From Stercorarius parasiticus (taxonomy: Eukaryota; Chordata; Aves; Charadriiformes; Stercorariidae): 64,000 bases of DNA. The translations under genes and the position numbers were made by a program. Below the pieces are notes generated by a model. It was not told the DNA's origin, did not search any database, and saw nothing but the letters and a program-made list of their open reading frames with translations. Positions 17,780 through 61,176 of this stretch are shown one piece after another (the stretch's first letter is position 1; the number at the start of each line of letters is the position of its first letter). The DNA is taken from contig VWZL01000872.1 of NCBI GenBank assembly GCA_013396915.1, positions 45,506-109,505 on the forward strand, in the 5' to 3' direction.

Positions 17780-17941
17780 GCCCAGAGAAGCTGTGGCTGC
17801 CCTATCCCTGGAGGCGTTCAAGGCCAGGTTGGACGGGGCTTGGAGCAACCTGGGCTGGTGGGAGGTGTCCCTGCCCAGGGCAGGGGGTGGCACTGGGGGG
17901 CTTTAAGGTCCCTTCCCACCCAAACCACTCTGTGAGTCTGT
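17780..17941 (+). mobile_element. CR1 LINE, 3' fragment
   Basis: Sense copy from CCCAGAGAAGCTGTGGCTGC to CCAAACCACTCTGTGAGTCT. Confidence 0.92.
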
Positions 17942-23389: not shown

Positions 23390-23812
23390 ACAGAATTATA
23401 GAATCGTTTTGGTTGGAAAAGACCTTTAAGATCATCAAGTCCAACCGTTAACCCCGCACTGACAAGTTACCACTACCCCATGTCCCTCAGCGCCACGTCT
23501 GCCCGGCTTTTCAATCCCTCCAGGGACGGCGACTCCACCACTGCCCTGGGCAGCCTCTTCCAATGCTTGACAGCCCTTTCCAGGAAGAAATCTTTCGTAA
23601 TATCCATCCTAAACCTCCCCTGGCGCAACTTGAGGCCGTTTCCCCTCGTCCCATGGCCTGTTCCTTGGGAGAAGAGCCCGACCCCCCCTGGCTACCCCCT
23701 CCTTTCAGGGAGCTGGAGAGAGCGAGAAGGTCTCCCCTCAGCCTCCTTTTCTCCAGGTTGAACACCCCCAGCTCCCTCAGCCGCTCCTCACCAGACTTGT
23801 GCTCCAGACACC
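23390..23812 (-). mobile_element. CR1 LINE, 3' end, just upstream of exon 2
   Basis: Antisense copy beginning ACAGAATTATAGAATCG and running through TGCCCTGGGCAGCCTCTTCC to the ORF2 end (CCAGACTTGTGCTCCAGAC). It is very close in sequence to the copy at 13330. It ends about 120 bp before the exon 2 acceptor. Confidence 0.93.
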
Positions 23813-23934
23813 TCACCCCTTTAACAGGGACTTCTCCCTTCTTGCTTAACATATATTTTAAGGTACTGGATTTAAATAAATAAAGGGTCATAAATTCATA
23901 TGATCTCCTGCTGTTTCTCCATGTATATATCTAG

Positions 23935-24392
23935 GATGACAACGAAGCCAACAGACCCATGCCCAACAAAGGAGACCATGGACTAGGAAACGAGAAGTTC
24001 AAACCTGTGGTACCTTGGCCTCATGTTGAAGGTGTGGAAGTGGACTTGGAATCCATTCGAAGGAAAAACAAGGCCAAAAATGAACTAAATCATCATGGTG
24101 GTGGTGATAACAAACAGCAAAACATCATCCAGAGGCAGTATCTCACATTTAAGCCTCAGACATTTGTATACCGAGATCCTGTTTTACGACCCGGAGTCCT
24201 TGGTAATTTTGAACCCAAAGAGCCTGAGCCTCACGGAGTTGTTGGTGGCCCTGGAGAGGAAGCGAAGCCATATGTTTTAGGACCGGATTACAAAGAATCC
24301 ATTCAAGCCAGCATTAAAGAGTTTGGGTTTAATATGGTGGCCAGTGATATGATCTCACTAGATCGGAGCGTTAATGACTTGCGTCAAGAAGA
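23935..24392 (+). CDS. GALNT7: GALNT7 exon 2: stem region and start of catalytic domain
   Basis: This 458-nt exon follows a TATATATCTAG acceptor and ends CAAGAAGA before GTAAGC. It encodes residues 1-152 and two bases of a Glu codon. Its landmarks are PMPNKGDHG, a basic-acidic stem, the Pro-rich [17 protein letters not shown] segment and the [13 protein letters not shown] run that leads into the catalytic domain. It is the largest exon, and its length is not a multiple of three, so skipping it would shift the frame. The start of the window's coding sequence is a splice junction, not a start codon. A CR1 copy ends about 120 bp upstream of the acceptor. Confidence 0.96.
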
Positions 24393-36300: not shown

Positions 36301-39300
36301 GTAAAGCAATTATCAGTAGGTGATAATTGATATCACTAGGGATCTCGTAAAACTTAAAACACAATTTTAAAATGCGAACAGTTTTATATTAATGGAGAAG
36401 AAAGATTCCATTTTTTAATGTCAATTACAATTTCAGGATAAATGCTGAATCGAGACCTTCAGCTTTGTACTGATTCGGGGCTCTCGGCTTGAACCAGCTG
36501 ACTTCAGCTCCTCCGGAGCAGGAGTGGGACGGCAGCTGCCTAATGTCCTGGATAAATTGGGTCTGAGCACACAAGTCCAGTGGGGGGACCGTGTGCCTTT
36601 GGTAAGCACCGGTGCGGGTTAGATGATGGTTGACCTGGTGAAGATCGTCTCAGGAAGGAGACTTGGTTGCAGCCACAATACCTCTTACTTTTCCCCGGAG
36701 CTTAGGTGCTGGTATGCCAAGGAAACTGGAATTCAGGATGACGCGAGGAGCCCTTCTGCTGGCTCCGGATCTCAGATTGCCCTCTCAGTGTCTGTCTGAC
36801 TGGGGCTCGCCCTTAAATTGCAGTGGCGGTGCTCTCCTTGATCACTTCTTGCATTTCTGCTTGATGGCTGGAGCACTTCTCCAGCAGCAGTCTCTAGCCT
36901 GGGCTTTTTGTAGCCTGAGGAGATTTGAGGCTGTGTCTGCAACGCTGTGGCTGCTAACGGGGAGGCCGTAGGGCCATCCCGTCCCCGGACCATGCACCCA
37001 CCACCACTCCTGTGGGGCTGGGGGTCTTTGGCAAAAGCAAGACAATTAATGGGAACAAAGCTGTAAGAACAGAAGCATCCCTAAGCCAAGGAGAGAGCTC
37101 CAGCCCTGGCCTGTATGAGGAACAGCGTGTCCAGCAGGACTGGGGCAGTGACCGTCCCCCTGCACTGGGCACTGGTGAGGCCCCACCTCGAGGGCTGTGT
37201 CTGGTTTTGGGCCCCTCACCACAAGAAAGACACTGAGGGGCTGGAGCGTGTCCAGAGAAGGGCAACGGAGCTGGGGAGGGGTCTGGAGCACAAGTCTGGT
37301 GAGGAGCGGCTGAGGGAGCTGGGGGTGTTCAGCCTGGAGAAAAGGAGGCTGAGGGGAGACCTTCTCGCTCTCTCCAGCTCCCTGAAAGGAGGGGGGAGCC
37401 AGGGGGGGTCGGGCTCTTCTCCCAAGGAACAGGCCATGGGACAAGGGGAAACGGCCTCAAGTTGCGCCAGGGGAGGTTTAGGATGGATATTAGGAGCAAT
37501 TTCTTCCCGGAAAGGGCTGTCAAGCATTGGAAGAGGCTGCCCAGGGCAGTGGTGGAGTCGCCATCCCTGGAGGGACTGAAAAGCCGGGCAGACGTGGTGC
37601 TGAGGGACGTGGGGTAGTGGGGGTTTGGGCAGTGTTATGTTTACAGTTGGACTTGATGATCTTAAAGGTCTTTTCCAACCAAAACAATTCTATGATTCTG
37701 TGATTCCGAGGTCCCCCGTAGAAGGGCTCCTCTCCTGCTGGGGGGGCACAGCTGCGTGGTGGGGGGACAGGGAGGATGGCATGGCAGGGTCTCTGGCAGC
37801 GCTGCTCCCTCCCCGGGTGGAGAGGGCGTAGGACTAACTCACATCTTAAGCATGTCGGCTAATCGTCAGAAGCAACGTTACTCACTCCGTTTCTCCATGA
37901 GATCACCACTGTATCTTTTGAACAGTTTCCTCTCGCTCCGGTGATGAGTCAGCCCGTGTTTTTCCGCAGCGATAGTGGTGCCGAGTTGGGAAGACGCAGG
38001 TTTTGCTCAGGGGCTGCTCCGCAGGCCCTTCCTTTCACCCCGGAGCTCCCCGAGGAAGGGCAGCAAAGGGGGCTGCTCTTCATGGGGGTCGGGACAGGCG
38101 GTGGGAAGCATCCAGGGGCCGGGCTGGCTAAAGGATGCTGCCCTCTCCTTGCTGCACGCCTGCCGCAGCGCGCCGGCCTCCCGGCTCTGCCAGTAGGAAT
38201 TCAAATTAATGGTTTTAAGGGAGTTTGTTTGCCGGTTTGGTTCCTGGTATATCGCACACCCTGTGCCGAGCGTGGGCAGGACAGAGCACCACGGGGGATG
38301 AAGCCAGAGGTCGAAATGTATTGAAATCCCCGTTGTCGCAGCCCCTCTGGCACTCTGAATGTGCCCCTGGCCAGCTTTCCATTGCTTTCGCGTGGACACC
38401 CATATCTACATGACTCTATCTTTCAAAACCGAAGCATGAGTGTGGAATTTCAGGCTTTTTCCCCTTCTGGTGCCTAAAACTTACTGGGAAGCTAGTACTG
38501 TAAAATTCAGCTTCAACCCCGAGGAAAATACGTATGGTGTCGTGGTGTTCGGTTTGCCGGCCACTGGATGTCAGTGCTGCTCTGCCGGAGAAAGGCTCTT
38601 CCTTCCCGCTGGATGCGAAGTGTCCTGATTTTTGCCGCTCGGATAACTGAGTGATGTTTGAATTTCTTGGGAAAATTGCCCCAGAGATGAAAATACGCGT
38701 TAATTGCATGTATCTTCAACCCTCCGATTCTCCCTGCAAGCCGAGGGAGTTCCTGCAGTCTGCGGGAGCTGCTGGGCTGGGGGACTCAGCTGCCGACTGT
38801 CCAATAACTGCAACAAAGCCGCTGGAAAAAAACCTAAAAGTATGATCTTACTAGAGGTATAAACGTAGTGCTTTTACGGCTTGCAAATGGCACTTTTAGC
38901 GACACATGATTTTTCAAGTTTAAAAAGTAAAACGTGCTGACAGATTGGAGGAGATTAAGTTGGATATGTAGCAAAAAGCCTGTCTAGACCTCTGGTTTTA
39001 TGTTTTAAAAATGTATTAAATACAGATCAAAAAATGCTTATAAATTGCTCACAGATGTGTTGTTCAATTCAGGCTTTTGTAATAGGTTTGGCTTTTTCAA
39101 ATTATATTAAGTTACTTACTGTCTTTCATTCTTATGCTTTTCACCATTTTGTTCCTAAATATGACTCACCTGCGGTACAGAAAGTGGGAGGAAAAGGCAA
39201 GCAAAAGATTTGGGTTTTTTTTGCAGCGTTTGCTTTGTTTCTGTTGGTGAAGGCAGTCTGAAATGTTGTGGCGCTCTTTAACTGGAGAGCAAAAAAGTTT

Positions 39301-42300
39301 CCTTGTGGAAGGTGGGGGTCAGTGGCACAGTGCAGCCCGTGTCGGGTGCTGCCCCCTCCTTCCAGGGAAAAAGTCATCGAATCACAGAGTGGTTTGGGTG
39401 GGAAGGGACCTTAAAGCCCCCCCAGTGCCACCCCCTGCCCTGGGCAGGGACACCTCCCACCAGCCCAGGTTGCTCCAAGCCCCGGCCAACCTGGCCTTGA
39501 ACCCCTCCAGGGATGGGGCAGCCACAGCTTCTCTGGGCATCCTGGGCCAGGGGCTCACCCCCCTCACAGCAAACAATTTCTGCCTCAGATCTCATCTCAA
39601 TCTCCCCTCTGTCAGTGTAAAACCCTTCCCCCTCGTCCCACGGCTCCCCTCCCTGCTCCAGAGTCCCTCCCCAGCTTTCCTGGAGCCCCTTGATGGCCTG
39701 GCAGGGTCTGGAAGGTCTCCCCGGAGCCTTCTCTTCTCCAGGCTGAACCCCCCCAGCTCTCTCAGCCTGTCCTCCCAGCAGAGGGGCTCCAGCCCTCCCA
39801 GCAGCTCCGGGGCCTCCTCTGGCCCCGCTCCAACAGGTCCAAGTCCCATTAATGGCCACTGCCTTGGCACGGAGCTCTGGAATGGCACTCAACTGGCATG
39901 CCCAGTTTCAACACGTAACACCCCATTGTCCTCCATTCTAACAGAACCGTATCACCAAAATTAATCCAGATGAACATACGTTCTGTTGTTAATCCATTAT
40001 TAAAGATGCAATGGAAAAATCTTTCTGTACCCATCCGACTCAGCACACCCAGGTCATGTATCCGTTGTGGCTCTGCAAATCGCCGACTAACTGGTGGGCA
40101 TCTGAAACGCGTGTGCTGCGGGTGCAGCGGGGCAAGCTGTGGTCACCTGGAGCCGCCGGAGCCGGAGCTGGGGCAGGAAGGCGGCATCCATCTGGCGCCT
40201 CTCTAGTGCTAGCTTACAAATACGATTAGCCGTGGGTACTCCAGGCATAACAACAATGGAGCGGAGGATTTTAGGCAGTAAACCATACTTGTAGTGATGG
40301 TGCTGTTTCAGAGGTCGCTTTCACCATGCCCGACCAAGAGAGAAAATGCCTTATTAGATCGGTCTTAAGTTATAGACCCCTTGGATGCTGTAATTTTCTT
40401 TTCCCACAGGACCAAAATGAATAGTATGTTTGTACCAATTTCTTTTCTTTCTGGTGGTTTGAAAGCATATATTGATGCTGTTCCTTGACAATAGGTGAAA
40501 TACGTCCTTCTCCACCAAAGAAACGCTCTTTAAATACCTGTAGGTCTGTTACGCAGGTTCTTTCCCATTTCACGTAGTTTGGTTTCAGAAGCGGTGGTTT
40601 CTTTTCAACCACAGGAATGTTTCTGTGCATTCAAGCTTTTCATCGTATATAGAGAAACATAACTATGGAAGCTGGTGCATCCCCAAGTTTAAAAGCTTCT
40701 GTTTGTCAAGAGTAAATTCTTAAGACACGATCGCTGTCTTTGAAAAGCCAGGTTCTCTCCAGGCGAGACCCGACTTGCTGAAAGATGAGGAAAGGAAGTC
40801 GTTAGCCCACTGAAACCAAACGTGCCGTGTCGCTGGGTCTGCTGGTAGGAACTGTGTTGTTGCAGTTGAAGGTGGTCGGGGGGAAGCTCCCAGGCAAGGA
40901 AATACCCGGGCTGGTTGGAATTAGGGCAACCAGCAACACTCTCCGTTAGGGATGCAGTTGGGGGAACGGACATTACAATTGCAAATGAAATGCATCGTTG
41001 ATACATGTGATGAGTAAACATCGGAAAGTGTGGACTGAATTACGCCTATTTCTTGTTCCTAAGTCATCTGTAATACCTCAGGAAAAAAGACCTGAGTCCA
41101 GGGCCGCGGTGAAACCGAAACTCAAAACTCGGATGCAGAAGTGCTTTTCATGGCGTGCCAAACTGGAGCCCTGGGTGGGTTTGGTGTTTTTTTAATGTTT
41201 TAGCTCCATTTGTTATACCTAGAAGTTTAGCCGTGAATGATGAGCAGTACAGATCACGTCTCGTCTGCCGGGGGATTACGTGTTTCCCACGAGCAGCTAT
41301 GCTTTTCTGACAGCCTTTGCAAACGGCGATAGTTTTATGCAGAACAGCTGACAGGAGCATTCCACGCGCTGCTGCTCCACTTCCAGCAAGTCACTTACTA
41401 TGTTTAGATCTCTTTTATTGTCAAAGGGCAGAACTTAATGGCTTCTGATTGCCTTGCCACAACAATGTTTGTAACTTTGCTAATTATGCAGATTCTGCAT
41501 GTGGACTGTGTAAAGCCAACAGAAACACTTCACAGACAGTCCTTCTACCGCGTAAATCTGATTTATAGAGGCTTAGAAAAAAACCCAGCAGTCTTAGGGC
41601 GTGTTATGCAGTAGGTGAGCCCAATGGCCAGCCCCTCCTAAGTCCTGGGGTCTGATGGTTGGAAGAAGACCCCCATCTTGGCAGCCACAGTTTGGGGCCT
41701 TTCTTGTGCTGTTCTCTACTGGTGGCACAAGCAGCATGGTGGTGGAGGTGGTGGTGGTGGTAGTGGTGGAGGTGGTGCTGGTGGAGGTGGAGGTTGTGCT
41801 GGTGCTGCTGGTTGCGATGGTGCTGGTGGTTGTGCTGGTGGAGGTGGTGCTGGTGGTGGTGGGGATGTCTCTGGTTGGTGTCCCTGGAATGCCATCCACC
41901 TACGCAGGAGGAAGCATGGAGCTGTAGAGTTGTCAGTCATTGTTCACCAGGGACATCTCCTCTCTCTCAGGAGGAAGCGGGCTCGCTGGCTGGGAGCGAG
42001 CTGCTCTTTGGGCCTTGTACCTCTGTGGTGCACCTAAACTATGTCACCTTTAATATCCTGTTTCTCTTTAGTCGAAGGAGAGCCATCGGTGGAGACTTCA
42101 TTTGCACAAAGATGTTGTTAAGTGGCTCTGTAAATCATAATGTGAAAACTAATAAAAATCCAATCTTTTTACAGATGCAAATACTGGCATTATGATGAGA
42201 ACCTGCTCACCTCCAGCGTTGTCATTGTCTTCCATAATGAAGGATGGTCCACGCTCATGAGGACAGTCCACAGTGTCATTAAGAGAACACCAAGGAAATA

Positions 42301-45300
42301 CTTGGCAGAAATTGTGCTCATTGACGATTTTAGCAACAAAGGTATATTTGCAATATTAACAGGCTACTTGCAGAAAAGGAAACTTCATTTGTTTTGGAAG
42401 TAGCTCGCTCTTGATTTATTACCTGCCACGGATTGTGTTGACTCGGCAAGAAAAGTAAATCGCTTCTTCGCAGCCCTGGCAGTTTTCAGGGAAGGGAAAG
42501 CTCTTTTCCGATGGTTTCACAGAGGTGCAGTCGTCGCTGTGGATTCAGCTGTGTGACAGACGGGGTTTGTGGTGAGCTCTCTTCCACAGCTGCCGAGTTT
42601 TATATAGTAGAAAGCTGGGATAACCACTGCCTCGCAGCCCTTGTGAGAAAAAGCAGTTTTAAGAGCGCTGAAGGAGTTTGAGTTCAGTCTGTTAGGAATA
42701 AGTTCTTTCTTTATTCCATATAGGAATCCAAATTATTTTTTCTTTTTTTTTAATACTATAATAAATATGCATCTAAGGTTAGAGAATTCTTCTGATTCAT
42801 TTTCACTGTCTTTTTAATTATTAACATCCTTTTTTTGTATTGAACATCACGTTGATGGGGTTATTGTTTCTTATTGTGGGGAGGGGCTTTTCAGAATTTA
42901 AGTGCATTTTAACTTCTGCCTTTCTTTGAGTCCTGCCTATCAACATTTTCAGAAGTCCGGAGGTTTTTCTCTTCCTTTGCAATATGCATTTGTGGTCTTG
43001 GTTTATAGTCATGGTGTATGTGCTTATGTGTGATTCTTACAAATCTAAACACACACGGACTTTTTTCCTTTGATGGTGGCATCTTCCGTGTTGCTGCAAT
43101 TGGAGGCTGAATACAGAGAAGGACCGAAAGTGCTTTGCTAGAGATATCGGGTGATTTATGTAGAGGAAATCGGTCTGGTTTTAAGCTTTAAACAAATTTC
43201 AAAACGGTGCACCAAAACTGCACGTTCTGCAAGCTTTTACTGCAGCCCGGAGCTCTGAGTGCGCAGGGTGAGAGTCTCTCTCTTCTCCACAGCCAGGGCG
43301 ATGGCTTTGGGGAGCCCGGGCGCGTTTGGGCTGGCCACAGGGCACATCCCCTCCAGCCCCCCGCTCCGGTTTGAGCGTGGCCGGGTTGGGCAGTGGCACG
43401 GAAAGCTCTGAAACTCCCCGCTTTACCCAGCGATCTGGGCTTCTCCCACCTCCAGCTTAACGGGAGGAGCCGTTTTCTGCAGGATTACCCGCTATAAACT
43501 TTAAGCCCAGCTCATCGCATAGTCAGGGTTGCCTTTTTTGAGTATAAATCACTATTAAAAATAATTATTGTACGTTAAATTTTCCAGCGTACCTGTAGGT
43601 AGGGTAGGTATCGTTTTCTGTTTGTTTTTACAGGGGAGGAAAAGTTACCTGTGTAGTAAACCTGCCTCCATCTGGCTGACTCTAATAAAGACGCTGAACA
43701 CTACATTATAGTCCCCTGTATCCCTTTACAGCTTTTGAGAATTTGGCTTAGAGACGCACACACGCTATAAAACAAAAATACCTCCTCTCCTAAGGGATAT
43801 CATTTTAATAACTCAGGCAGCAGACATGTGCTGTGTTTCTCCTTTCCAGCTGGGATCCCAGCTTTCCTCAGAGCTGCTCAAGGACCGAGTTAGCGGCAGA
43901 AAATAGGTGTGACACTGACGCTCGCTGCAAAAACTGCCCGATCTTGTTTTGCTCATGGCTGGACTCAGTACTGGGGTTTCATGTACGCTGTAGCTGACTC
44001 TCTGCTACGCGTATGTGATTTGTGGAATGAATTTGTCTGGCATAACAACTCGTACGACAGTTGCCCACTACATGATGACTGTTAAATAGAGGCAGTCTTT
44101 TTCAAGAAATTTGTTCTGAAATACACAACTTTCCTTACGCTCTCTGCTCGTGTGTGAATAGTGAGCAGATAGAGCTAGCCTGGACCTACCATCCAGCAGA
44201 CCCTCGTCCCTCTATTTCCCACACTTCATTTTCCCAAGTAACTTTTCTTGAATCAGAGGATTGAGCAAAAGGTGCAATTTTCTCACGTGTGAGCGGCTGG
44301 AGAACAAGCCCGGACTGGGACGGCTCTGAACACCTTGCTGCAACTGCGCTGTTTCGCCGCAATATTTCTTCAGACTGCTTCAGGCTATTACTTGGTAAAC
44401 ATAATTAACTTAATTTCAGTAATTCAAGTGAAGAATGGCCGAGAGGGCAGACTCGTGCTCCACCCCTTCTCCCGGAGAGGAGCAGGAGGGAGGAGGGTGG
44501 TACAGCACAAGTGCTCCGAACCGTCGTAGAGCTGCTCTTTGGGTGGATCTTGGCTTTTCCAGCCGGAAAATTGGCCATGCTGGTGGCACAAACACGGGGT
44601 TTTCTCCTCCCCACCTGATTTCAGTCTGCACACCCCCTGTCTGCTTTTCCAGCCTGTAACGAGTGTCTGACCAGTGCGGAGGGACGGAGATGCTGGGCTG
44701 GTGGGTGCTTGCTCACGGCGTGGCTGGCCTTAGGCTTACCAGCCGTGTGACAGTTGCAGTGCTTGGGAAATGTAATTTTCATTATAATTCGTTGTATAGA
44801 GTCAGTCGGGAGCAGTCCTTTTGCTGCACGGGGTTTTTTCCCCCCCAGTTTTTCTGGTGTTTCTTGATGGAATCGGTTTATTTTGCTGTGAGCGCTGGCT
44901 GTGGGGAGGGTACGGCTGTTCTGGACGGGCCATGAGAATTCGTAGCACCGGATTTTCTGAAGCTCCCTCCAGTTGCAGTTGTGTATGTGGGTCCTCGGTG
45001 ACGACTGTTTAGGTTCTGTTTAGGTACCAGCTTTATTTTGGTCGAAGCGCAGAGGTCAGGATCGCATGGGGTGCAGCTCCCTTTGTAGTCCGTGTACCTG
45101 CAAGGAGAGACTGCGAGGGAGATCCCGGCGTCCCACCAGCCTGCAAAGGCTTTTGCATTTACTGATTTTTTCTTTATCACTATCTGTATTTCCCACCGAC
45201 GCAGCAACCCATCAGATAACCAGAGGGGAGGCGTTAATCCCTGCCGGCACTCAGCTGCACCTGCGTTCCTGGAGGCACAGAGCTGCTCTAGGGCTTCTGA

Positions 45301-48300
45301 CACCCGTTTTCTCGTTCCCAAACCAACATCCACGAGTCGAGGGGAAAAACTGCTTTCCTGCTCCTCCTCCCTCCTCGTACTCTGCCGCGCCTCAGGGCTG
45401 TGGGAGAAGGGACGTGTTTTTAAAACCCGTCGATTCGTGCTTTGACCATGCACTGAGACGTGGGAGAAGAACCTGGACGAGGGAAGACCAGATTGGTGCT
45501 TATAGTATTTTGAAGGGTAAAATACACTTTTTTTTTTTTTTTTTTAAACAAGGACCAGAATGCCGCAAGGCTGCTGACAGCTATCGTAAATACACGTTCT
45601 AGGTGAACAAAATTTAACGCTGGCCAAACAGTGTCTCTAACTGTAAAAGTATCAGGATTTTACATACACTCCTGTCATGCAGCCTTTGTAGTATGGGGAG
45701 GAGGGAAAACGCAGTTTTCCTGTGGGAATAGCGCTTGCCGCTGCCCCTGGCATGCTTTCAGGTAACGGACTGCAAAGCCCCGAGACTCGTGCTGCAGAAA
45801 AGCTTCACACCCTCGGTGCGATGGGGTTGCACAGCTCCCCGCGAGCCCGGCGTGGCTGGGCGTTTGGGAACTGAAACGTTTGGCTCCACGGGCAGGAGAG
45901 CTGGAAATAATAGCTTCAGGATTTAAATCCTTCAAACATTCCTGACAGTCCTTCTGTAACATGTACTTGGAATCTGCAGAATAAATAATGGTGTGGTATG
46001 AAGATTCTCTTAGTTCCACTTCAGTATGACCTCATTACTCTGATGAATTTATCCTACAGAAATTTATATCACAGCTATCCTATCAGGTATTCTATAGATC
46101 TTACACGACATGTTGTTCTATGCAGCGCATGTGATGAAATTGCTCTTTCTCTAGTTCCATATTCATTTATCCTTGAGGTTTTCCTAATGCACGAGGATTT
46201 ACAAAAGAAATTGTAAATGCGTGTGGGAAAGGAGAAGAGGATACGTAAAACTTCTAGTTGAGAAAACTTAGTCTGTTATAAAGGTAGAGGAGGGATAATA
46301 AGAGTATTAAAAGATAGTGGTTTCAGAAGAGTGTTCTATGGGAGAATTGCTGAGTTTTCACATTTGGAAACTCTGTTTCCAAAAAACACCATTTCCATTT
46401 CAATTATTTATAGGTAGCTTTTGCTTAAACTAGATTAGATTATTTTTTTCTTTAATACTGTTGGCAAGAATATGAGCCAGTCTGAAATGTTAAGTTGCAG
46501 CAAGCTCCAGACTTGAATTACTTCTATTCGAGGTGCGGAAACTGTTGCTGCTGGGGCAGCCCCATGGCTTGTTGGTGCTGAGTGGGACATCGTCCTTCCT
46601 TGAGCAGGGACATCCTTCTCCTTCCCTCAGCGGGGACATCCTTCTCCTTCCCTGAGCAAGGACATCCTTCTCCTTCCCCAAGCGAGGACATCCTTCTTCC
46701 CTCAGCGGGGACATCCTTCTCCTTCCCTCAGCGAGGACATCCTTCTCCTTCCCTCAGCGGGGACATCCTTCTCCTTCCCCGAGTGAGGACATCCTTCTCC
46801 TTCCCTCAGCGAGGACATCCTTCTCCTTCCCCGAGCGAGGACATCCTTCTCCTTCCCCGAGTGAGGACATCCTTCTCCTTCCCCTGCTGCACATCCCACC
46901 CTGTTACTTTGGTTCCCAACTGAGAGAAACTGAGGCTGTCGGCAATCCTTCCGAGCCTTTCAGTACAAAACCAGGTTTATAATGAACAGCAGCGGCTCGA
47001 TGAGCAGAGCCTTGAACAGCCAAGCGGCCTTCTGCCCTTGTGCGTCCTCAGCAGCAGCATCTGGGCACAGATACCCTCCAACACTGGGCTCCTTTTTTCA
47101 GATTGTGTGCTAGGAGTGGGGGTTCCAGATCAGTTTAGCGGAGCCATGTGCAAATAGAAATCTGTAACCATGTAAGCGTAGCCCATCATGATTCTTAGGC
47201 GGCCACTGGTCCCTTTGCCGACCGAGTCCCTGTGGCTAAAGGTCTCTGTTCACCATGGGGTCCATAATGTGCTCAGCAGCATGATGTTCCACAGCTCGCT
47301 CTGCTGCTATTCTGCCCCTCCACTTACTCTTATTAATGTCATCAGAAGATCAGCATAAGAGCACCCCAACGCCAAGGGGGGAGAGGTCTGGGTGAGGGAG
47401 GGCAATAATTTGAGTGTGGTGGGTTTCTGTCTTGGGTTTCCAGTTTTGATTGACTGACACAAAAAAATGTGAGGCAAAAAGAGAGTGAAGAGAAACGTTT
47501 AACTGCAAAGTCATGCCTTCAGCTGTCCGTGTGCCATGGCCCGATGGGGAAGGACCATGTGTTGAAGCGTCGAAACTTCTCTGCCTGGTTGGAATCCAGG
47601 CAAAGCCCTGAAAGCCACTCTGATCTACTGATGTGAGGGGGAATTGCCCACCCAGGTCCCCCGTGGAGTGGCCGACCACGTCCTCTGCGTCTCTTCAGAT
47701 GTGCCATGGAGTCAGAGAGCTCCCAGTCTTCATCTCCTCACCGTCAGTGGTTGGGAGGGGGCTGCCAGCAGCTGAGATAAAGGATGCGGAGTTGGAAGTA
47801 GAGTTGGATTTGGGTTGTGTTAAGAGCACGAAGCTGTTTGTTGCCAGACCTCACCCAACATCATTTTTTCTCTCTGTTATTTGACAGCACACTTAAAGGA
47901 GAGGCTGGATGAGTACATTAAGCAGTGGAACGGCCTCGTGAAGGTGTTTCGAAACGAGAGGAGGGAAGGTTTAATCCAAGCGAGGAGCATCGGAGCCCAG
48001 AAGGCGAAACTTGGGCAGGTAGGAGCCAGTTCACGCACAAGTCTTTCTTTTTTTTTTTCCTTTTTTGGGGGAAAAGGTGGTGGTGGTTCTATGTCCAAAT
48101 CGACGTGTAGAAATGTGGTATTGTATTATTGATGCTGTTTTACGAAGAAATTAATTTTACTCATTGAAGCTTCATTTTTTTTTCTTTATAATATGAACGT
48201 ATTTCAATGTCAATAAGCTTAATTAAATCATTGTGATCTCATATACAGAAATATAAATGACTTAGGTTTTCTTTTCCTTTTGAAGGTTTTGGTTTACCTT

Positions 48301-51300
48301 GATGCCCATTGTGAGGTGGGAATTAATTGGTATGCGCCACTTATAGCTCCTATATCTAAGGACAGGTAATGTTCTCCCGTTATTTCCAGTGTCTGGCCTC
48401 TTAGGAAGAAAAAGTCACAGTAACATTCTTCACTTTTCAAATTATAGTCAGTATGTTTTATATCTCTATCGATATATAGCTATATCAAACTGTATCAATA
48501 TTTGCTGTATGATGATTTTATTGTCTCCCAGGGTAAAAGCAATGTAAGGAGGAAGGAGAATGGTCGGCTGAATAAATCTAGGGCAGTTTATTTCAATAGG
48601 CATACGGAATATTTTGCTTAGTGTAGACTGAATGTAAGGCAGCTCTTGTCTTTTGCAACAATCTGAGGGGCTGTTGTAAGAATGTTCTGTTCTAGATGAA
48701 TAAGGGGCCTGATTAAAGAAAATAGCTGAACAAAACGGTGATTTTTGGGAGAGGAAAAGTAGCAGGAAGTGTTTTGGTTTAAGAGAGAGTTAAAGCCCCC
48801 GGGATCTCAGGAGTTTTGTAACGTTCCCACCCTTGGCCTTGCCGCACGGCGTCCCGGGGGCCGTGCTGGAGGTGCTGGTCTGGGGGACGGGCAGAGGGGG
48901 AGCCCCGGGGGCCGTGGGGCCTCCCCGGCTCTAAGGGCTGCTGAGCCCTGTGCTCCGAGCTGGGGGGGGTGTCGAGGAAACCATGTGCTGGTTTGAACTC
49001 TTTAATCCCATAGAACAACTGCTTAATCCTAAAAACTATTTGCTAACCTGACGTACTACCGGGACTTCCCTCAAGAGGTTCTTTCTGTGTGTTCTAAAGG
49101 CTGTAACTCAGCTTAAAGACTGTATTTGTCCCTGCTGCCCCCGCAGTCCCGAAAAACCAGCACGGCATTAGCGTTCCTTTGCCCCCCACAGATTCCTCCA
49201 TCTCATAGGACTTGACTTAAAGATGGAGATGCTCCACGTTTGGTCACCGGGAAGCCCATTTGGAAAATGTGGGGAGAATAACGAGATAAAGTCTTTTCCT
49301 TGGCTAATATTGTATGTGATAGATCACAACGGGGAGCATATTGCAAATCAAACAGGAAAACTTCTGCTGAAGCCCATTGCCAGGAGAGCACCAGCAACGT
49401 TTTGTACCCGGAGAGGCTGGACTTGGGCAGCTGAATAGGACAGAACAGTGAAAATCCAGTAAAAGCTCAGAGCTTACCTTACTTGTTGACAGCTGAGATC
49501 TGATATGAACAGAAATTAGGGGAAATAATAATAATAATGAGGAACCCCGGCCCTCTACAGGCTCCTCTGTTGCCTCCGGCAGCGTGTTATTAGAAGACCG
49601 ATGTCAAGAAGTGCACGTAAAGGAACAAGTATTGAGAAACGAATTGATATATTAGCATTTCAGTCCTAACTTTTCTGCTTTCAGAACCTCTTAAAACGAC
49701 ATAAAGGAAGGACTGTCTCTTTTCTCTTCTAATGAGGCTTCATTCTTTAATAATATGGTTACAAGTGACTTTTCATATACGCTGCTCTGTAAGGTGAATG
49801 ATTGATGGTGTGAATTTCAGATTAGACAGATTACTCTTCTGAAATTGTATTTTGCTCTTTCTTTCCCTTCTATAAATGTTTCAGAACTACATGTACTGTA
49901 CCTCTAATAGATTACATAGATGGGAATGATTATTCCATTGAGCCACAACAAGGTGGGGATGAAGATGGTTTTGCCAGAGGGGCCTGGGACTGGAGTTTGC
50001 TGTGGAAACGCATTCCGTTAAGCCACAAGGAAAAGTCCAAACGAAACCATAAAACTGAGCCTTATCGGTAAAGAGAGCTGTTTACCTACTGTGAACCGTA
50101 ACGAATAATTGTCTAAACCCTCTCGTTTTTCCCTCCCCGCCTCTTTTCCCTGCGGCCGGTGCCCGCGTGCCGCCGGGTCCTTGCCCGTAACCGCGTCCTC
50201 GCTGCCACCGTGCCGCCCGGCAGAACCACATGCACCGTCCCGCTCATAGATGTCATAGAGGGACACACTTTTAAGATTGTGCCGCAAGGGGGTGGTGACG
50301 AAGACGGGTTTGCTAGAGGAGCGTGGGATTGGAGCATGCTATGGAAGAGGGTTCCCCTGACCAAGCGAGAGAAGCAAAGCAGAAAGACAAAAACTGAACC
50401 CTATCGGTAATCACTAAGTCACTTACCCCTTTCTCCTCTGCCGGGGCCCATGTTGAGCCACTAAAACTTGCATGTGCTCTTCGCCTGAAAAACCTCCCTG
50501 TTTCTAACCGCCCCAGCTGCTTCGTTTCACCCGACCCTTTGCCAGCGCTGCCTCTGTGCTCACACCACCTTTGCCGCCTTGCGCTTTCTCTCCGCTCCTG
50601 CTCTTGGGCGCTTAGAGGGCTGCGCAGGGGAGCGATTTTGTCCGGCAAAATAAAACACTCCATGACTTGGTTCCCAGGGAGAAATTCTGTTTAGCTCTGA
50701 TACTTCTTTAAAAGTAGCGTTGGAAACAACAGTGCTTATTTAACCGTTTGAGTTGAGATAACGAGCATGCTGCGAGTATTTATAACAGCCCGTAACGCAT
50801 AAAACCTGTAGCCCGCGGCCGTGGCTTGGTGCATGCATACAGCTCCTGGGTTGTGCATGGGCATCCCAAAAAACCCCCTTTGTCATCTCTCTCCCACTTG
50901 CTTCATAATAGATCACATCTGAGAGAGAAGCAGACGATTTAAGAATCTGGGCTAGGTATTTTCTAAGGTCGCAGTATGCGTAGGGGTTTTAATTTAATAC
51001 ACATCGCATGAAAAACTAAGAGGAAAAAAAAAAAGCCACCTTAGTTTCTGGGGAAAAAAAGGAACCCCCACCACTGTGCTGTAACTCCGGTAACTTCCAC
51101 ACAAGTCCCACCTTTTTCTTTCGCTTCGGGGCGGGGGGGGAATGTTTTCTTCCCAGCAAGGAGAAGCTGGCTGGAGACCCCGCGCGGGAGGGAGGGTTTC
51201 TGGATGGCTTTTCAAGGCCGGGGGACTGTGGTTCTGCTGTTTTTTATTACTTTCCCCTTCACACTTAACTAATCGCGTTACTGCATTTGAAAGCAATCCT

Positions 51301-54300
51301 CACATCTCCAGCATCTAATGTCTTCTCTTGCTCGTGTGTATGATTTAAACATTGTAAGAGCCGCTGTCGGTAATTCCCTATCCTCACCCCTCTGCTAAAA
51401 TGGCAACACATGCAAGGAAGTTCTGAAGCTTTGATCTGTTTTGTGTACAGTATAAATAATAGCATTTTCTGACAAGGCTGTCCACATTGGAACTTTAATA
51501 CTCGCTTAGAGGGGGATAAACTATTTCAAGCATTGCTGTTGCGTTCTGTGTTTACCAGCCAAACAGGTCTTAAAATCCTTTAAACCATTCCCAGAAACAT
51601 GGAACACATGTTCGCAGAATGGTTTAAAAGATGACTTTATTTTTAATAACGCTTTCAGAGTTACAGTGCTGCTTCTAAAAAGAGACATTCCCCGCTCGGT
51701 TCCTGTCCCGGCTGCGTGCCTTTCCTTGTGGCAATGCCAGGGCAAGTAAGACCGAGTAAAAATCTGCCAAAACCTTCACTGGGTTTAAAAAGAAATCAGC
51801 CAACCAACCAACCAAACCTCCGCGGCTTAAAGCACAGAAACAAACTTTTCCTAATGTGAGAATTGCCCCAGGACTGAACCCTCCTTGCGGAAATACCGCG
51901 CTCACCTCTTCGTGCCCTGTAAAACAAACCTCGGAGCTCTTGCGGGTTTTAAAGTGTTCTCGAACACATCCGACNCAAGGGGACGTTGAGCAGTAACTGG
52001 GCGCCAGGCGATGGGAGGGCGGCTGCGCCCGTAGCCACGGCGCCTCAGGAAAATCCCCTTCCTCGTGTCTCTCCCACTTGCTTCGTAACGGATCGCATCT
52101 GGGAGAGAAGCAGGCTATTTCAGACTCTGGGCTGCGTGTTTTCTAAGGTGGCAGTTTGTGTTGGGATTTTAATTTAATACACATCACACACCAAAAAATT
52201 AAAAGAAAAAAAACCACCACCTTATTTTTCTGGGGAAACTCCAATAACTGTTAAAAGGAGCATCACAAAGGTAAAAATCTAATGGAAATGAGAAGAATTT
52301 GCCCCGTCTCTCACTGCTTTCAAGAAGGAATACCTGAAGGAACATTCAAGAAGGAATATTCTACTTGTGTTTCACCGGGCTCACCGGAGCGATCCCGACT
52401 CGGATCCTCCTCCCTTCGGTGCTGCGCAGCATCTGAAGTCAGAAAGAATTCACTTTTTCCTTACCAGCTTTTTGGTTTTTTAGATTGGCAACTTGGTGGG
52501 GACTCCAGCTTTTACCCATTTGGGTAAATATATATTTATTGATCACCACGTGAGAAACGCTTGGTACGTGCGCTGGAAATGGCTCAACGCATCCAGCGCT
52601 CGATGGCAGCAGGAGGGAGCTACCGGGGAATCTTGGTCAGAGCCGTTCCGCAAAAACGCTCCGATCCAAACCACAGCGTCTTTTTGACACATTAAAACTG
52701 GCTAATTGAGCCCTGGCGTACGTGGAGGGGTTTACAAAGCTGTTTTAAAAAAAAAAAAACAAACCTAAACCAAAAGGGAAACCCTTGCACAGCTTGATCC
52801 AGGCCCTTTTAAACATTTCACTGGGCATAAAGAAAAAGTGTCTCGTAGGGCAGGGGTAGGAAAAGAGCCAGAGGGAGGAGACAGAAAGGTGTCATTTAGC
52901 TGGAAAAACTCTATTCCTTGTTTGATAGACAATGAGTTTCAATGTGGCAGCTCCTCAGAACGTAAAACCCAGTCTGTTCCGCGGCCTCAGCTGTTCTCTC
53001 AGCAGCTTGAACGACTTTAAAGTGAGAAATGTTTTGTCACAACGAGTCTTACCTTTTCCATTTTAATAGAAACCTGCTGAATGGGTATTAAATGCATTTA
53101 GAAAAATTAATGAATTTTAAAAAACCCCATAATCTGTGACTTCACTAGAAATTATACAGACCGCTTCAGAAAATTGCTGGAAGCTGATGGCAAAGCTTTA
53201 TGATTTTTCAGTGTATTGCCATTTACCTGATCTTTATTATGAAGTTACGGGTGAATTGCTTCCTTAATTGCCGCTTTCCCGCGTGTTGTTGCTCCCCGTG
53301 GCAGAAGGAGTGACGCCGTCTCCCTCTTGCAGGTCCCCGGCGATGGCTGGTGGCCTCTTCGCCATTGAGCGCGATTTCTTCTTCGAGCTGGGGCTCTACG
53401 ATCCCGGCCTTCAGATCTGGGGGGGCGAAAACTTCGAGATTTCTTACAAGGTAACGCCAGAAATTGAAAGCCGGTTCCGTTTAGTAGGGCTGGTTTTCTG
53501 TAAGTGCTTCTCTCTGGGGTTCGGGTGGGTTTGCAGCCCCTCGGGTGCTGTGGCAGAGATGTGTCCTCCCGTGTCCCCCCTGTTTCCCTGGGGGCTCTGG
53601 GCAGGGGGGGTCCGGGAGGTGCCTGGTGCTGAGACATGTGGTTTTGTGAGTGGTTTGGGATCACACACACCTCCAACTGTCTAATTTGGAAGCAGACCGG
53701 CACATCTGAAGGTGGGAACGGAGGCGCTCTCAGCGTAGAACAATGTCCTTATTGCAAGTGATTCGAGCAGCAGCGCTGGGTTTAAGCAGAGACGCCTGAA
53801 AAGTATGTAACGATGCAACAAAAAGGAATCCGCTTTCCTCCTCCCTGCCGTTTTTCTGGGTGAAAAAATGATCTCCTACCCTTTTCAAAATTTCAAGAAC
53901 GTCTTTCCAAGAGAACCCTTCACGATGGAACCGCGAACTGCATAATTCATAACCACCGCAGAAGGTTTTATTTTCAGTGCTAGGCACATGCATGCCCTTC
54001 CCTTAGCAGGAAGCATAAGATGATAATCATCAGCTTCTTGTAGCTCCAGTTGTAGTAACGACACGAGCGCAGACAGCAGGAATCTGTCCCAGTTAACCAA
54101 CACAAGTGGAGACACCTCATTTCCTCGGCAGCGATCTGGATTTTGCTGGAAGCGTGTTCCGAGCGCTCCTGCTCGCGGGGATGCGGAGGAAGCTCCCAGG
54201 GCACTCGCTCCGCTCTGAATCCAGGCGCAAAGGGTGGCGACTGAGGACGTTCCTCGCCCGGGGGCTTTATCCTTCTCCTTCCCCACCGCGCTCGGAGCGG

Positions 54301-57300
54301 AGACGTCATTGCAATTGCATACGGTGGTTTGGTTACTGAAGCGCCAATGACGTGGAGACCTCCAGGTTGGCTTCAGCAGGTCACACCAGGCTTCAGAAGA
54401 ACTAAATAACATTCCTCAGTCTTGCACACCGACTCGAGTCAGCAAATAGAATGGCCTTGCATATCTGAGGGGTTTTTTGATAAAACTTAAGAAAATTAAT
54501 ACGAGGATGCAATGAAGGAAGGAAGCTCTTCCGCCCACCTTTCCTAATACTAAGTCGTATTTTTAATCTGGAGTTCGGGCTAATTTAGAACATCCCCAAA
54601 GTTAGCTTGAGTTTGGATTTGGTGCTACGTTTCAAACGCGGCAAAACTACGAGCAACTAAATTCAGATTTAGGTATGTTTGCTTTTCCCCATAAATGGAT
54701 TATCCAAGGACGTGTGGGAGGGAGGGAATTTCAGAATGGTGGGATGTTTTAGCCATTTTTTATTCTCGGCTACTGTAGTTAAGGCAGAAGCTGCTTGTAC
54801 TTGGAACAATGGATTACCAAGGACATCCTTATCTCCTGCTAGTCCTTATTGAGAAACACTTAGATGTGATGGGCATCTAACCAAAACCCACCCTAGTGAT
54901 GGTAGGTGAATTGCTTTAATAACATCAAAATATTATTAATTCTGTCATAATAAAAATTACCCGGTTCCAGATTGTGTGCACTCATTCATTCCTGTTGTTT
55001 TAAAATAGCAATGGGATGAGACGGCAAACTTTTTTCAAAGCTTTTTTCAAAGGTAATTTAGTTGAGTAATTTCATGGCTGAGTTGAAGATGTACCCAAAT
55101 ACAGCCTGTCATCTCAGACACTTCTTATGTTTATGCTCACGTCTGAAACAAAAATATTTAAATGTATCACACGGTTGGTATAGTAAGAAAAAGTAGTTGA
55201 CATTTCCTCCATAATTTATTACCTATTTGTCTGTCTTCAATGACTGTCTCCGCCTTTGCTTTGACTTGTAGATCTGGCAGTGTGGGGGGAAGCTGCTCTT
55301 CGTGCCCTGTTCTCGTGTTGGACACATCTATCGGCTCCAGGGCTGGCAAGGGAACCCGCCCCCCGTCTACGTGGGGTCATCTCCTACGTTAAAGGTACTG
55401 CTTTGCTGCGGCCTTGCAGCTGCTTTTTCATTTTAGATAACAGCGGTCTTAGATAAATCTGTTTAAATTATCGGTAGCAACATAGAGAGCACTTCATCTA
55501 AAGCTGTTTATTGCCTAAAGCTAAGATGGTCATGGCCACGAGAGGGAAATCCTTGTGCCAGTCCCACTGTCCCTAAGAGCAGAGATTCCTGGAACCCATC
55601 TTCTCGCTCCACCTCCCTCCCAGCCGGCAGAGAGACAGCCCTCCTGCCAAGGGTTCCTCTTGCCTAGTTTAAGCTTCTTCCTGTGCAGTGTTTTGGCATT
55701 GGTAAATCACGTTCCCGAAGACCCAGTTCTTTGTAAATTCCCATCCCGGAGCCATCTTCCTAGACGTTACCTGGGACGATGGCCACTGGTGGGGTTACAG
55801 AGTGTGGCTTGAGCCAAGCTGGCAGTTGGGTCTGTTGAAAAGGGAATGTCCCAGCCCAGCTTAATAGTAGAAAACCAACCTGGCACCCAAAAGAAGATTT
55901 AAAAAGTCCTCTGTTAGTAATGTGAATTGATTCACATTTTGATCAAAGAAGGACTAGGGCCAGGACAAGGGAGGGCAGGAGCAATGGGAGTAGCTGGGAG
56001 CAGGGACGGAGAGATGGGAGACAGGATGGCAAGTGATGGCTCCATTGCTCAGGGCGGGCCTTCGCCGGAATGATAACAGACATTTCACTCTTCTGAAAAG
56101 CTGATCAAAAATACTTGCTGCATATCGAAACAGCTTGTGTGAGGCTGCTCCGCTGCTTGCTGAATACAGCAGAACACTGCTGAGCGGTCTGAAATACGAA
56201 GTTCCTTCTCTGCTTGAGGTGGGAATTCTCCCTCCCCGGGCACTCTCCAAGCTTTTTGATAGCTTTGTTCAGTTTATGCTGGATGGGGATTAAAGTAAAA
56301 CTCACAATAACGTGTGCCTTTAGTCAGATCTATTGAGTGGTTTAACGCCGGGCCGTTAGTGCCAGGAGAAGTGCACAGCGAGGTGCGCATCTAGAAGACG
56401 TACCGGTAACATGGAGAGAAGAGCGTGCTCACCAGACGAGCTACCCATTTTCCCCTTCTCCCAGCAGCAATAAACTGCTTCACTTAGGAAGATAAAATCT
56501 CCTTGGTGTGTCATAGCTGACCCATTTAAAACTTAAATTTTTCCACCCTCCGTGGACTAGCGCGCAGCATTCTCCCTGCTAAAGCTGCGGAAGGTGAACG
56601 CAGTCTCTGAAGTGCAGCGCTGGTGCGCAGCAAGCGACTGCGACGTTTTATTGAAGAGTCTTTATTTTCAAATAAACGTCCTCTAAACTTAGAAAAAAGA
56701 CTTGGTGCTCTCCTCAAGCAAGCCAGTTTAATTTGCTGGCTTCAGTCCTAAGCCGTCACTTGAAAGTAACACACAGGCGGCTCGTGTAGTCTGCTGAAGG
56801 TGACTAATGATGACGTAACAATTTTACGCTGTCACTTTTTGAGGAGAGGTCCTTAAATTTCTGCAATGAACACGCAGTTGCGCCTCAGCCTCTTCCTCCT
56901 CTGTCCTCCTTCCTCCCAGAACTACGTCAGGGTTGTGGAGGTGTGGTGGGACGAGTACAAGGATTATTTCTACGCCAGTCGGCCGGAGACCAAAGCGCTG
57001 CCCTACGGAGACATATCTGAGCTGAAGAAATTCCGCGAAGATCACAGCTGCAAAAGCTTTAAGTGGTTTATGGAAGAAATCGCATACGATATAACTTCAT
57101 ATTATCCGCTACCACCTAAAAACGTGGACTGGGGAGAGGTAAGTACAGCACGTAACCTGCATTTACTTTAGGAGCTTTTTTTAAAAAAACTGGGAATTCC
57201 AAAGGAAGCGGTTGTTAGTTGACATCGGTCTGGGAACAGGCTCTTTGGTTACTGCTATACTGAGGTGTACGATACTAGCCAGAGAGCTACGGAGGTATAA

Positions 57301-60300
57301 CCCTAGGGAAAAATTCTATCTTCTCTAAGAGGTGTGATTTTTTTTTAATTAGCTGCATAGTTCCTTGAAGGATTATTTTATCTCTAGCCCTGTCTAAAGC
57401 TCCTTTTTCCATAATTGGAATTCAGATATTTATTTTTTTTAAAGAAAAAAAACGCCAATCCTGTGTGGGTAGGAGTATTGGCGAAGATTAATAGGTGAAA
57501 AATGTTTTTCTGAGAGGGCCTAGAGAATGGGTGGTGAAAGGCAGGTGGGGTGCACCCTGCCCGCGTCTGCTGCCTGGGATGTGCCCGCAGTCTCCCAGCC
57601 TCGGTAAAGCCCTGCTCTGCCTGGAATAAGGAGGTAGGATCCCGCACCAGCCATCTCCAGCATTAGTTGTATGTCTCTTGGTGCCTGTGGCTTTGCTAAA
57701 TTAAGAATGTGGTCACGAATTCAGCGGTTTCCTGTGGTTGTCACCGGGCAGGTGGGGGGACACCTCGCCGAATGCTGCCCTGACGTTCTCCCGTGCCTTG
57801 AGGAGCTCTTCCTGCAGGGCTCCTGCCCGCTGCCAGATTTACTTCTTTTTGCCCTTTTCAGTTGGCTCCAGCCTTGCCCCGTCTCTCCGGGTAGTTTCGC
57901 TTTTGCAGATTGCGGAAGCAGCATCAGAAAGTTACCTTGCCAGCAGAGGAGGAGCCCTGTGTCCCACCAGATTTAACAACCTCCTTTCCAAGATGCGATG
58001 GACCCGTTTTTCTCACTTCGCAAGAGCATTTGCGAAGTCCAGATTTTATAAGTCCAGGTCTCTGCTGTTCCCTAGGGCCAAGGAAGTGTCACTTTTAACT
58101 TGCTGAGGAATTGGCGATACAGAGCGTGGGGCTGGTGGAAGGGGCATGAATAGTCTTGCATCTGAGGGACCAGCTGAATGATGGCACCTTTATTTCTTAC
58201 CCAAAAGCTCGCACAAAGCGTCAGTTCCTCCATCAGCCCGAGACCTCCTTTTGGAGCCACGGGAGGGGTTAGGCAGGATGGTTGCACATCGCTGTTCACC
58301 CGGGTGAAAGGGTCTGAAGAGAATAAAATAATAACGGCAGCTTGCGGGAAGCCATCCCTGGTAAAAGCGAGCAGCTCTGGGGCGGCAGCAGGAGAGTTGG
58401 GAGTTCAGAGACGTCTCTGAAGTTTCTTCAGCTCCTCTTCGCTGGCTGATGGTTGTCCTACACCTGGGACAGTTTATCCCCACCTCTTTGTAACAGCGCA
58501 CTAATGGCATTTCCAAAGTGTCGGGAAGGACAGTGTGGGGTTCAGCTTCCCGAACACTCCCTGGAAGTCAGGGCTAAGCTCAGACCTCCAGACGTTCTTC
58601 TGCCATCACGAGGAAGAAAGAGGCTCTGCCAAAGGAAATAGAATCATGGAATCATAGAATTGCCTAGGTTGGAAAGGACCTTTCAGATCATCGAGTCCAA
58701 CCAAATCAGTCTGGAAAGAATGTTATTTGTGTCAGAAGGTCATTGAATCACAGAGTGGTTTGGGTGGGAAGGGACCTTAAAGCCCCCCCAGTGGCACCCC
58801 CTGCCCTGGGCAGGGACACCTCCCACCAGCCCAGGTTGCTCCAAGCCCCGTCCAGCCTGGCCTTGAACCCCTCCAGGGATGGGGCAGCCACAGCTTCTCT
58901 GGGCAACCTGGGCCAGGGGCTCACCCCCCTCACAGCAAACAACTTCTGCCTCACGTCTCATCTCAGTCTCCCCTCTTCCAGTTTGAAGCCATGACCCCTC
59001 GTCCCACCACCCCATGCCCTTGCTGGCCCTTCCGAGAAGGGAGTGGGATCACCAGCCGTTGAGGCACGCTTCCTGACAGGACTTTTGCTCTTTATCCCTG
59101 GGCCTGTGTGTGCCCCTCATCAATTCTGTCTCGTTTCCCATGTAACTGGGGCTGCAGACGGTGGGTTGAGCAGCCGGTCCGTGGGCTGTGCCCGGCTGGG
59201 CGCAACTTCTCTGCAGCACCTTTCTCATCCAGAGGATGAGAGCAACTTAGCTGAGCTCCTGCTTAATTTGCGACGACCTGGGAGCCTGAACATGCTTTGG
59301 TAGGAGATCGAGTAAATTAAAATACTCGGAAGTCCTACGTTTCGGTGTCATTAATTTGGAGCTGAGCTTTGCGGCTCTACCCTTATCAGTGTGCTCTAAC
59401 TCACGTAAGAGCCCGCCCATTAATCGGGGCAGGTAGAAGCTCCGTCTCCCAGAATGGAGAACATCAGTATTTACCTTCAATACGCAGGTCTGTCTCGTAA
59501 CCCCTCTGGCAGATGCCTGCTTCTGGTTTGAAAGATAAGTGGGAATTTCCCGAACTCCTCATTTTTCTCTTATTTTTCCCTTGCAACTGAGTTATACTGC
59601 AAAACCTCTTTTCCAGATCAGAGGCTTCGAAACCGCGTACTGCATCGACAGCATGGGCCACACCAACGGCGGCTTCGTGGAGCTTGGCCCGTGCCACAGG
59701 ATGGGGGGCAACCAGGTGAGGAGCCAGGGGGCCAGGCTGACGGAGAATCACTTGCCGCAGGTGGCAAAGGGACAGGTTTCTCTGTGAAAAGTCGCTTTGG
59801 TGCCAGACATAAAGACGGGAGTTGGGGGTTTTCCATAAGCGCACTGACGTCGTGAAAATACGGGGATCTGAAAATACCATTTCAAACACAAACTGAAGGC
59901 AAATCGGTATGTGAGGAAGCGAGGACTGTGTTTAAAGCAAGCATGTCACGGCATTGGAACAGCTGCTGCTGAGTCAGCGCTTAGCATCTATCTTCATAAT
60001 TCGTCCTTCAGCGACAGCCCCCTGCTCACCTCGGCTCCGTTTTACTTCACAAAGTTGACTTGCTCTAACGGAGGGGTGAAACACCTTCGTGCAGTAACTC
60101 ATCTCCCACCGCAGGGGACGAGGAGTCGAGTACAAATTTGTCTCCGCTTCATTTACAAACTAGTTGGCAGACCGTAAAGGCTAGTAGGGGGTTGCAGGCC
60201 AAGCTGCCGTCGTGTTTGACCTGTGTCTTCACAACCCTCCCCGCGCTGCCACGCAAACGCGCTCTTCTCTCCTTACAGCTCCTTTTTTCGGCTGCGAAAC

Positions 60301-61176
60301 TTTCCAGCATTTAAAGCCCTTGTTTATGCTGAGGACGACTTGAACCGGGCAAGTTTTGTCACGGCAGCCATGAAATCACCTGCGGGACGATGCCTTTAGA
60401 AATTGTGTTTGGGGTTAGCTCTTAGTAGCCCTGGGAAATTTCTCTTTTATTTTGATATTTCATTAAAAAGTTCCCCAAGCTACTTTTTCGGTATAGGTTA
60501 CCCCAAAAAACCCTGTAACAATTATAAGAAGTAGCCAGGATAATCTTTTTGTGTCTGGATGCAGTAGTTTGATTTTCCCCTTGGGTGAAACGCCGGAGTT
60601 TTACTGTCGCCACATGAACTGAGTGGCCAGGAGCAGGGACTTGCTGCCGGCCCTTCAGAGAGAGCGTGGATTCCCTGGCCGTCAAATCGGGCAAGGGCTT
60701 TTATCAGACGCTTCCAGAAGGCTCCCACATCGGCATCCCTGTATTTTGTGTAATTTGTGTCTGGCTGGGTGAGTTTCTTACCCTTCGAAATCTCCATGAA
60801 GTTCGTGTCGTGACGGTAAAAGCCCGTTACACCGTGTAAATAAAGAGCCCTCCTGCAGGGCCGGGGTGACACCACCAGGCAGCGTTCGCAGTGATGCCAC
60901 TTCATTGGTACGTTCAGTTGACTCTAAAATGCTCGTCGTTTTGAGTCAACTGTTAAAAAGGTGCTTTTTTTTCTTTTCGCCGTCAGCTGTTCCGAATCAA
61001 CGAAGCCAATCAGCTCATGCAGTACGACCAGTGCCTGACGAAAGGGCCGGACGGATCCAAAGTCATGATTACGCACTGCAGCCAGAACGAGTACAAGGAC
61101 TGGCAGTACTTCAAGGTAGGCAACGCAGGTAGAGCAGGAAAGAAACGGTAACTTGCATCCTGGAGGGTTTTGCACC

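Follow-up and report, generated by a model that had tools for sequence, protein, structure and literature searches.

GALNT7 in the window

The window, a stretch of 64,000 nucleotides from the bird Stercorarius parasiticus (contig VWZL01000872.1, positions 45,506 to 109,505), carries exons 2-12 of a bird-like GALNT7 on its + strand. When spliced with exon 6B, the encoded protein aligns end to end with the GALNT7 structure chain 6iwq_A (597 residues aligned, 1315 bits), far above other GalNAc-transferases, with GALNT10 next at 424 bits. We take the structures 6iwq and 6iwr to be of human GalNAc-T7.

Exon 2 (23935..24392, +), the first coding exon located in the window, encodes the stem and the start of the catalytic domain. 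Exons 3 (42175..42341), 4 (47888..48018), 8 (55272..55394), 9 (56920..57138), 10 (59617..59715) and 11 (60987..61115) are likewise on the + strand and contribute to the spliced protein that aligns to 6iwq_A. The DAH motif is encoded in exon 5 (48286..48365, +) and the WGGEN motif in exon 7 (53333..53450, +), and exon 12 (62886..63023, +) includes the stop codon. For exon 1, a search of the window with five motifs gave no convincing match, and three motif hits were judged to be due to chance.

Some of the GALNT7 introns contain tandem arrays. A 26-nt unit is repeated 11.3 times in the intron between exons 3 and 4 (46593-46883), and the last intron holds 14.6 copies of a 29-nt unit (62289-62712; alternatively described by a 116-nt unit), ending 173 nt 5' of exon 12. 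An interspersed repeat family with copies ~87-97% alike is found on both strands (6787-7320, 34853-35343, 39370-39846, 58736-59007, 30109-30318, and 17778-17939 on the opposite strand). A second, related family occurs at 13330-13902 and 23388-23817, and on the opposite strand at 37111-37705 and 25553-25789; its members are ~86-94% alike and match the first family at 67-69% over longer matches. Rfam returned no matches at the gathering score across the whole window.

A tandem pair of homologous exons

Between exons 5 and 7 are two adjacent exons of 183 nt each on the + strand, 6A (49885..50067) and 6B (50224..50406), exactly as originally predicted. They are of equal phase, and both are preceded by AG and followed by GT. 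Either completes to Arg the codon that exon 5 leaves unfinished (...AG|), and either passes CG| to exon 7, whose first G completes the next Arg codon, so the shared junctions described earlier are borne out. Homologous, neighbouring, matched in length and phase and with their splice sites intact, the two exons have the anatomy expected of a mutually exclusive pair.

The two encoded segments are identical at 45 of 62 residues if the two shared Arg codons are included and at 43 of 60 if they are left out, the latter agreeing with the earlier count. Of the nucleotides, 123 of 183 are identical, and chance similarity is ruled out by a BLASTP E value of 1e-35. The same codon is used at 19 of the 45 residues in common. 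Within the invariant DEDGFARGAWDW core, codons differ at 7 of the 10 positions with a synonymous choice, so the core does mostly use differing synonymous codons, as had been noticed. The suggested comparison of dN with dS between the copies could be made in part: pS is 0.79 and pN 0.19, and no numerical ratio is given because synonymous differences are saturated. Third-position GC is 0.39 in exon 6A versus 0.55 in exon 6B.

Spliced together, exons 2-12 encode 675 amino acids with both copies, 614 with 6A, 614 with 6B and 553 with neither, and the frame is kept in all four forms. The original prediction that each copy gives a complete GALNT7 of the same length therefore stands for the equal 614-residue frames; completeness applies to exons 2-12 only, because no convincing exon 1 was found in the window. 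Neither double inclusion nor skipping breaks the frame, so nonsense-mediated decay cannot enforce exclusivity, and the reading frame is ruled out as its enforcer.

The intron between exons 6A and 6B

At 156 nt, the intron that separates the copies (50068..50223, +) is the shortest of the 11 GALNT7 introns measured, the other 10 being 267-17782 nt long. The AG that precedes the exon 6B acceptor is 146 nt upstream of the exon, compared with 20-75 nt for the 11 other acceptors. No AG-free run on either strand of the window is longer than the resulting one (~145 nt), the next in length being 98 on the + strand and 130 on the - strand. Given how few adenines it contains, the run is unusual to a moderate degree only: 242 of 20000 letter shuffles are likewise free of AG. 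A long AG exclusion zone and a short intervening intron, the layout of pairs kept apart by steric interference, thus occur together here. The intron is also CpG-rich, with 17 CpG in 156 nt and a GC content of 0.62.

The intron has no adenine from +51 to +121, every adenine being ≤50 nt from the 6A donor or ≤35 nt from exon 6B. The branch point is therefore predicted to lie no farther than +50 from the 6A donor or at -35/-34 from exon 6B (50189..50190, +); an adenine at -17 was judged too near the acceptor to be considered. The candidate distant adenines, predicted from sequence, are at +34, +41, +49 and +50 (50101..50117, +), and directly 3' of them is a polypyrimidine tract (50118..50151, +) with C or T at 32 of 34 positions. 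Their rival at -34, in GTAAC, is followed by a T-poor tract with C or T at 19 of 29 positions, 4 of them T. Branch-point scores, computed with our own weights, place +50 and +49 first and -34 fifth.

The steric limit quoted in PMC7969005 is ~50 nt from donor to branch point, and 57 human clusters of potential steric interference are described in PMC5740500. Exons 4a and 4b of vertebrate OGDH, including that of chicken, are kept apart by this steric limit and resemble the GALNT7 pair in being tandem and homologous, with a short intron that contains an extended AG-free zone and a large pyrimidine tract and has its branch points, in GALNT7 predicted ones, close to the upstream donor (PMC7969005). 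Mapping in OGDH placed the human branch points 25-41 nt from the donor, and branch points were mapped in chicken as well (PMC7969005), whereas those of GALNT7 are predicted, at +34 to +50. The combined length of 4a and 4b is not a multiple of 3 (PMC7969005), whereas both 6A and 6B are multiples of 3.

Should no more than ~50 nt separate the 6A donor from the branch point of exon 6B, U1 and U2 snRNPs would be unable to co-assemble on the 156-nt intron, and the joining of 6A to 6B would be blocked. The layout of the intron may thus be a credible reason for exclusivity.

Both versions in database proteins

Searches of protein databases with the exon 6 segment were inventoried for the best 120 of 282 and the best 120 of 334 matches, with 23 proteins common to both. 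The 217 distinct proteins were classified by a filter that combined the core motif (a pattern close to GAWDW) with an alignment score. Among these matches, largely gene predictions, a lone A segment occurs in 98 and a lone B in 97, and the other 22 have an A followed by a B. The near-equality of the first two numbers arises because the best 120 were taken from each search, so the counts are not frequencies, and since proteins with both segments score highest and rank first, their share is inflated among the matches listed. One protein (P0010) scored like a double protein and passed the filter once.

Both versions are represented in birds, mammals, turtles, alligator, snakes, amphibians, ray-finned fish, a shark and skates; in turtles and alligator, A was seen only within double proteins among the matches listed. 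One shark and three skates carry both versions. Isoform pairs of A and B within one species are named as such by the source in Heterodontus, Leucoraja, Amblyraja, Rhinoraja, Callithrix, Megaptera and others, the pairs of Callithrix and Megaptera being examples of the mammalian sequences with either version that the original prediction mentioned. Bird proteins with 6A were found in Eudromia, Cygnus, Hirundo and Mimus.

Three proteins that are 99.8% identical to the A and B forms of Leucoraja come from contigs that are 2153, 3691 and 3741 nt long and contain reading frames of 651-666 amino acids, each with a single A or a single B. Because these contigs are too short for a gene with long introns, they are probably cDNA. 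Their proteins are probably the closest thing here to transcript evidence, and would attest single inclusion of A as well as of B.

Age of the duplication and constraint on the two copies

We compared the two versions in 28 hand-chosen species: 15 that have an A protein and a separate B protein, 12 represented by double proteins (of the 22 listed), and the bird in the window. In an unrooted tree of the 56 segments (48 of them different, 62 columns), A and B fall on the two sides of one branch with support of 99/95, in a tree whose bootstrap is not fully settled; the rows nearest to those of the window are from Mimus, a bird. Because cartilaginous fish have both kinds, and A and B lie on opposite sides of that branch, the duplication is placed before the split of cartilaginous and bony vertebrates. 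Sharks and bony vertebrates parted more than 400 million years ago. By these sequence comparisons the duplication predates the jawed-vertebrate ancestor, the shark and skates having both versions, and is older than amniotes, as the original prediction had thought possible. A recent duplication is ruled out by the species comparison and the tree, and the old duplication that was originally proposed is upheld.

A third protein search, aimed at a lamprey or invertebrate outgroup, used as query the segment of a shark protein that is intermediate between A and B. Among its best 120 of 326 matches, the named ones are all from jawed vertebrates, and thus the pair was not seen outside this group; two proteins (P0218, P0219) were new relative to the earlier searches.

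The mean difference between two species is 8.3 residues for A and 12.0 for B. Of the 378 species pairs, which are not independent of each other, 336 are more alike in A, 19 in B and 23 equally so in both. Marmoset, humpback whale, red deer, two turtles and alligator share one and the same A segment. Exon 6A is the slower-evolving copy. The pS and pN values, the species table and the tree agree in showing both copies kept by selection across jawed vertebrates, and the purifying selection earlier proposed for each is upheld.

Consequences for the enzyme

The ARGAWDW centre is identical in 239 of 239 segments, an invariance due in part to the classification filter, which required a pattern close to GAWDW. 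Around it are residues that nearly diagnose the version (120 A and 119 B segments). Y11 occurs in 119 A and no B segments, D13 in 120 of 120 A and also in 21 B, and M39 in 119 of 119 B and also in 9 A. Residue 23 is Q in 118 of 120 A versus G in 109 of 119 B, and residue 16 is D or E in 110 of 120 A and T or K in 91 of 119 B. E20 is present in the A segments of all 28 rows of the species table; in the B segments of that table, tetrapods have V or I at residue 20, cartilaginous fish S, A or T, and most teleosts E. Because many teleost 6B rows also have Glu at this position, the contrast in charge is smaller in teleosts. In the window, exon 6A is of the Y11/D13/Q23/L39 type with an acidic patch (D13-D16-E20) and exon 6B of the V11/G23/M39 type. 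Over residues 11-23 the bird's 6A has three acidic groups, and its 6B has a net charge of about zero.

In GalNAc-T2, the residues that bind the acceptor peptide include Val255, Leu270, Phe280 and Trp282, and replacing Trp282 with Ala nearly abolishes activity (PMC4432651). GALNT1, 9 and 10 were aligned to the exon 6 stretch when placing the groove residues in GALNT7. By motif alignment to the GalNAc-T2 sequence, the equivalents of these four residues presumably fall within the exon 6 stretch, and Phe280 and Trp282 presumably match the two Trp of AWDW, which are kept in 6A and 6B. We infer that exon 6 encodes a stretch of the catalytic domain that aligns to the acceptor-peptide groove, and that the versions differ around shared Trp residues. 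The swap would then exchange 61 residues of the catalytic domain, giving GalNAc-T7 enzymes that share their length and catalytic core and differ in the groove rim, predicted to be acidic with 6A (D13, D/E16, E20) and, in the window bird, near neutral there with 6B.

A natural guess is that the charge may change acceptor preference. Drosophila pgant9 is also a GalNAc-transferase gene with two versions of one exon, 8A and 8B, that change charge beside the substrate path, are used tissue-specifically and differ in substrate preference (PMC6115407). There, the swap concerns ~30 residues of the alpha subunit of the lectin domain (PMC6115407), whereas that of GALNT7, a different gene, concerns 61 catalytic-domain residues. 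By analogy with fly PGANT9A/B, the two GalNAc-T7 enzymes may differ in the (glyco)peptides that they prefer as acceptors. The crystallised GalNAc-T7 (6iwq/6iwr) is the same enzyme, but with the 6B segment only, so the more conserved 6A version is absent from the solved structures. Against the GALNT7 structure chain, exon 6A scores 92.9 bits and exon 6B 111 bits.

Is the pair mutually exclusive?

We consider it likely that 6A and 6B are ancient homologous exons that are alternatively used and mostly mutually exclusive; they would give two GalNAc-T7 enzymes that may differ in their acceptors, with a distant branch point as the proposed block to joining 6A and 6B. Because evolution has retained both versions from a time before the shark lineage split from that of bony vertebrates, one GALNT7 gene very probably makes two different enzymes. 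Transcripts would usually carry one of the two exons. The 22 listed proteins with A then B mean that exclusion may be leaky or that some gene models are wrong. Reduced inclusion of human GALNT7 exon 6 is reported in PMC13039441, where it is treated as a skipped exon and not as a swap.

The double proteins could instead mean that 6A and 6B are neighbouring in-frame cassette exons, included singly or together, with the double form a real third isoform and exclusivity only a tendency. Double inclusion keeps the frame, and the double proteins include a turtle isoform X3 of 718 amino acids, 61 above the usual 657. Yet 195 of the 217 listed proteins have a single copy, several of the double models come from one source only, and double inclusion would place 61 extra residues within the catalytic fold, which is unlikely to be tolerated; free combination of the exons is, on this evidence, improbable. 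Far less probable still is that 6A is an unused relic in the window bird and 6B alone is spliced in. In favour of a relic, the solved structures have the 6B form, but 6A has an intact frame and splice sites in the window, and its slower evolution, its identity in six amniotes and the four 6A-bearing bird proteins all argue against disuse. A dead 6A copy is ruled out by the database proteins that bear it and by its conservation.

Exclusivity may also be real and have a cause other than steric interference. Pyrimidine tracts are the sort of site bound by regulatory RNA-binding proteins, and the distal tract could be such a site. Exclusivity might then be set by such proteins or by RNA pairing, with the adenine in GTAAC at -34 of exon 6B serving as a normal branch point and imposing no steric block; this would replace the steric part of our reading and leave the rest. 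However, the tract beside this adenine is poor in T, and the tract with 32 pyrimidines in 34 instead comes right after the distal adenines, so we regard regulation of this kind as possible and rather unlikely. The steric model with a distant branch point is our first choice among the mechanisms, with a roughly even chance of being right.

Significance

Exon pairs of this tandem homologous kind are well known, 236 such events being annotated in human (PMC9741552), and the GALNT7 pair is itself already annotated, because databases name separate A and B isoforms. A tandem duplicated exon event is named for another GalNAc-transferase gene, GALNT13 (Pgant5, gly-5), across vertebrates, arthropods and nematodes (PMC9741552). 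GALNT13 is the sole 'GALNT' word in the main text of that paper, which does not name GALNT7; its supplementary list of the 236 events may include GALNT7. Among the top-listed matches in the main texts of the open-licence literature, we found no description of the GALNT7 6A/6B pair, and no enzymology of its two versions was found there. The pair is of interest because of where it sits in the acceptor groove and how old it is, because the version with no solved structure is the more conserved one, and because it raises a question about knockouts. A GALNT7 knockout of HEK293T cells was made with guides to exon 6 (PMC11099032), and exon 6 CRISPR of GALNT7 was also used in PMC13039441. If the guides match only one copy of exon 6, could the other GalNAc-T7 isoform persist in such knockouts? 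We raise this as a question and not a claim.

GalNAc-T7 acts as a follow-up enzyme, with a preference for substrates that already bear sugars (PMC8472655). Jawed vertebrates may have two such enzymes, one with an acidic (6A) and one with a more neutral (6B) groove, kept separate by a splice lock that relies on a distant branch point and dates back to the split of sharks and bony vertebrates, a combined picture that we put forward tentatively and at somewhat less than an even chance. If the two acceptor grooves are real, work on one cloned version of GalNAc-T7 would cover half of its action.
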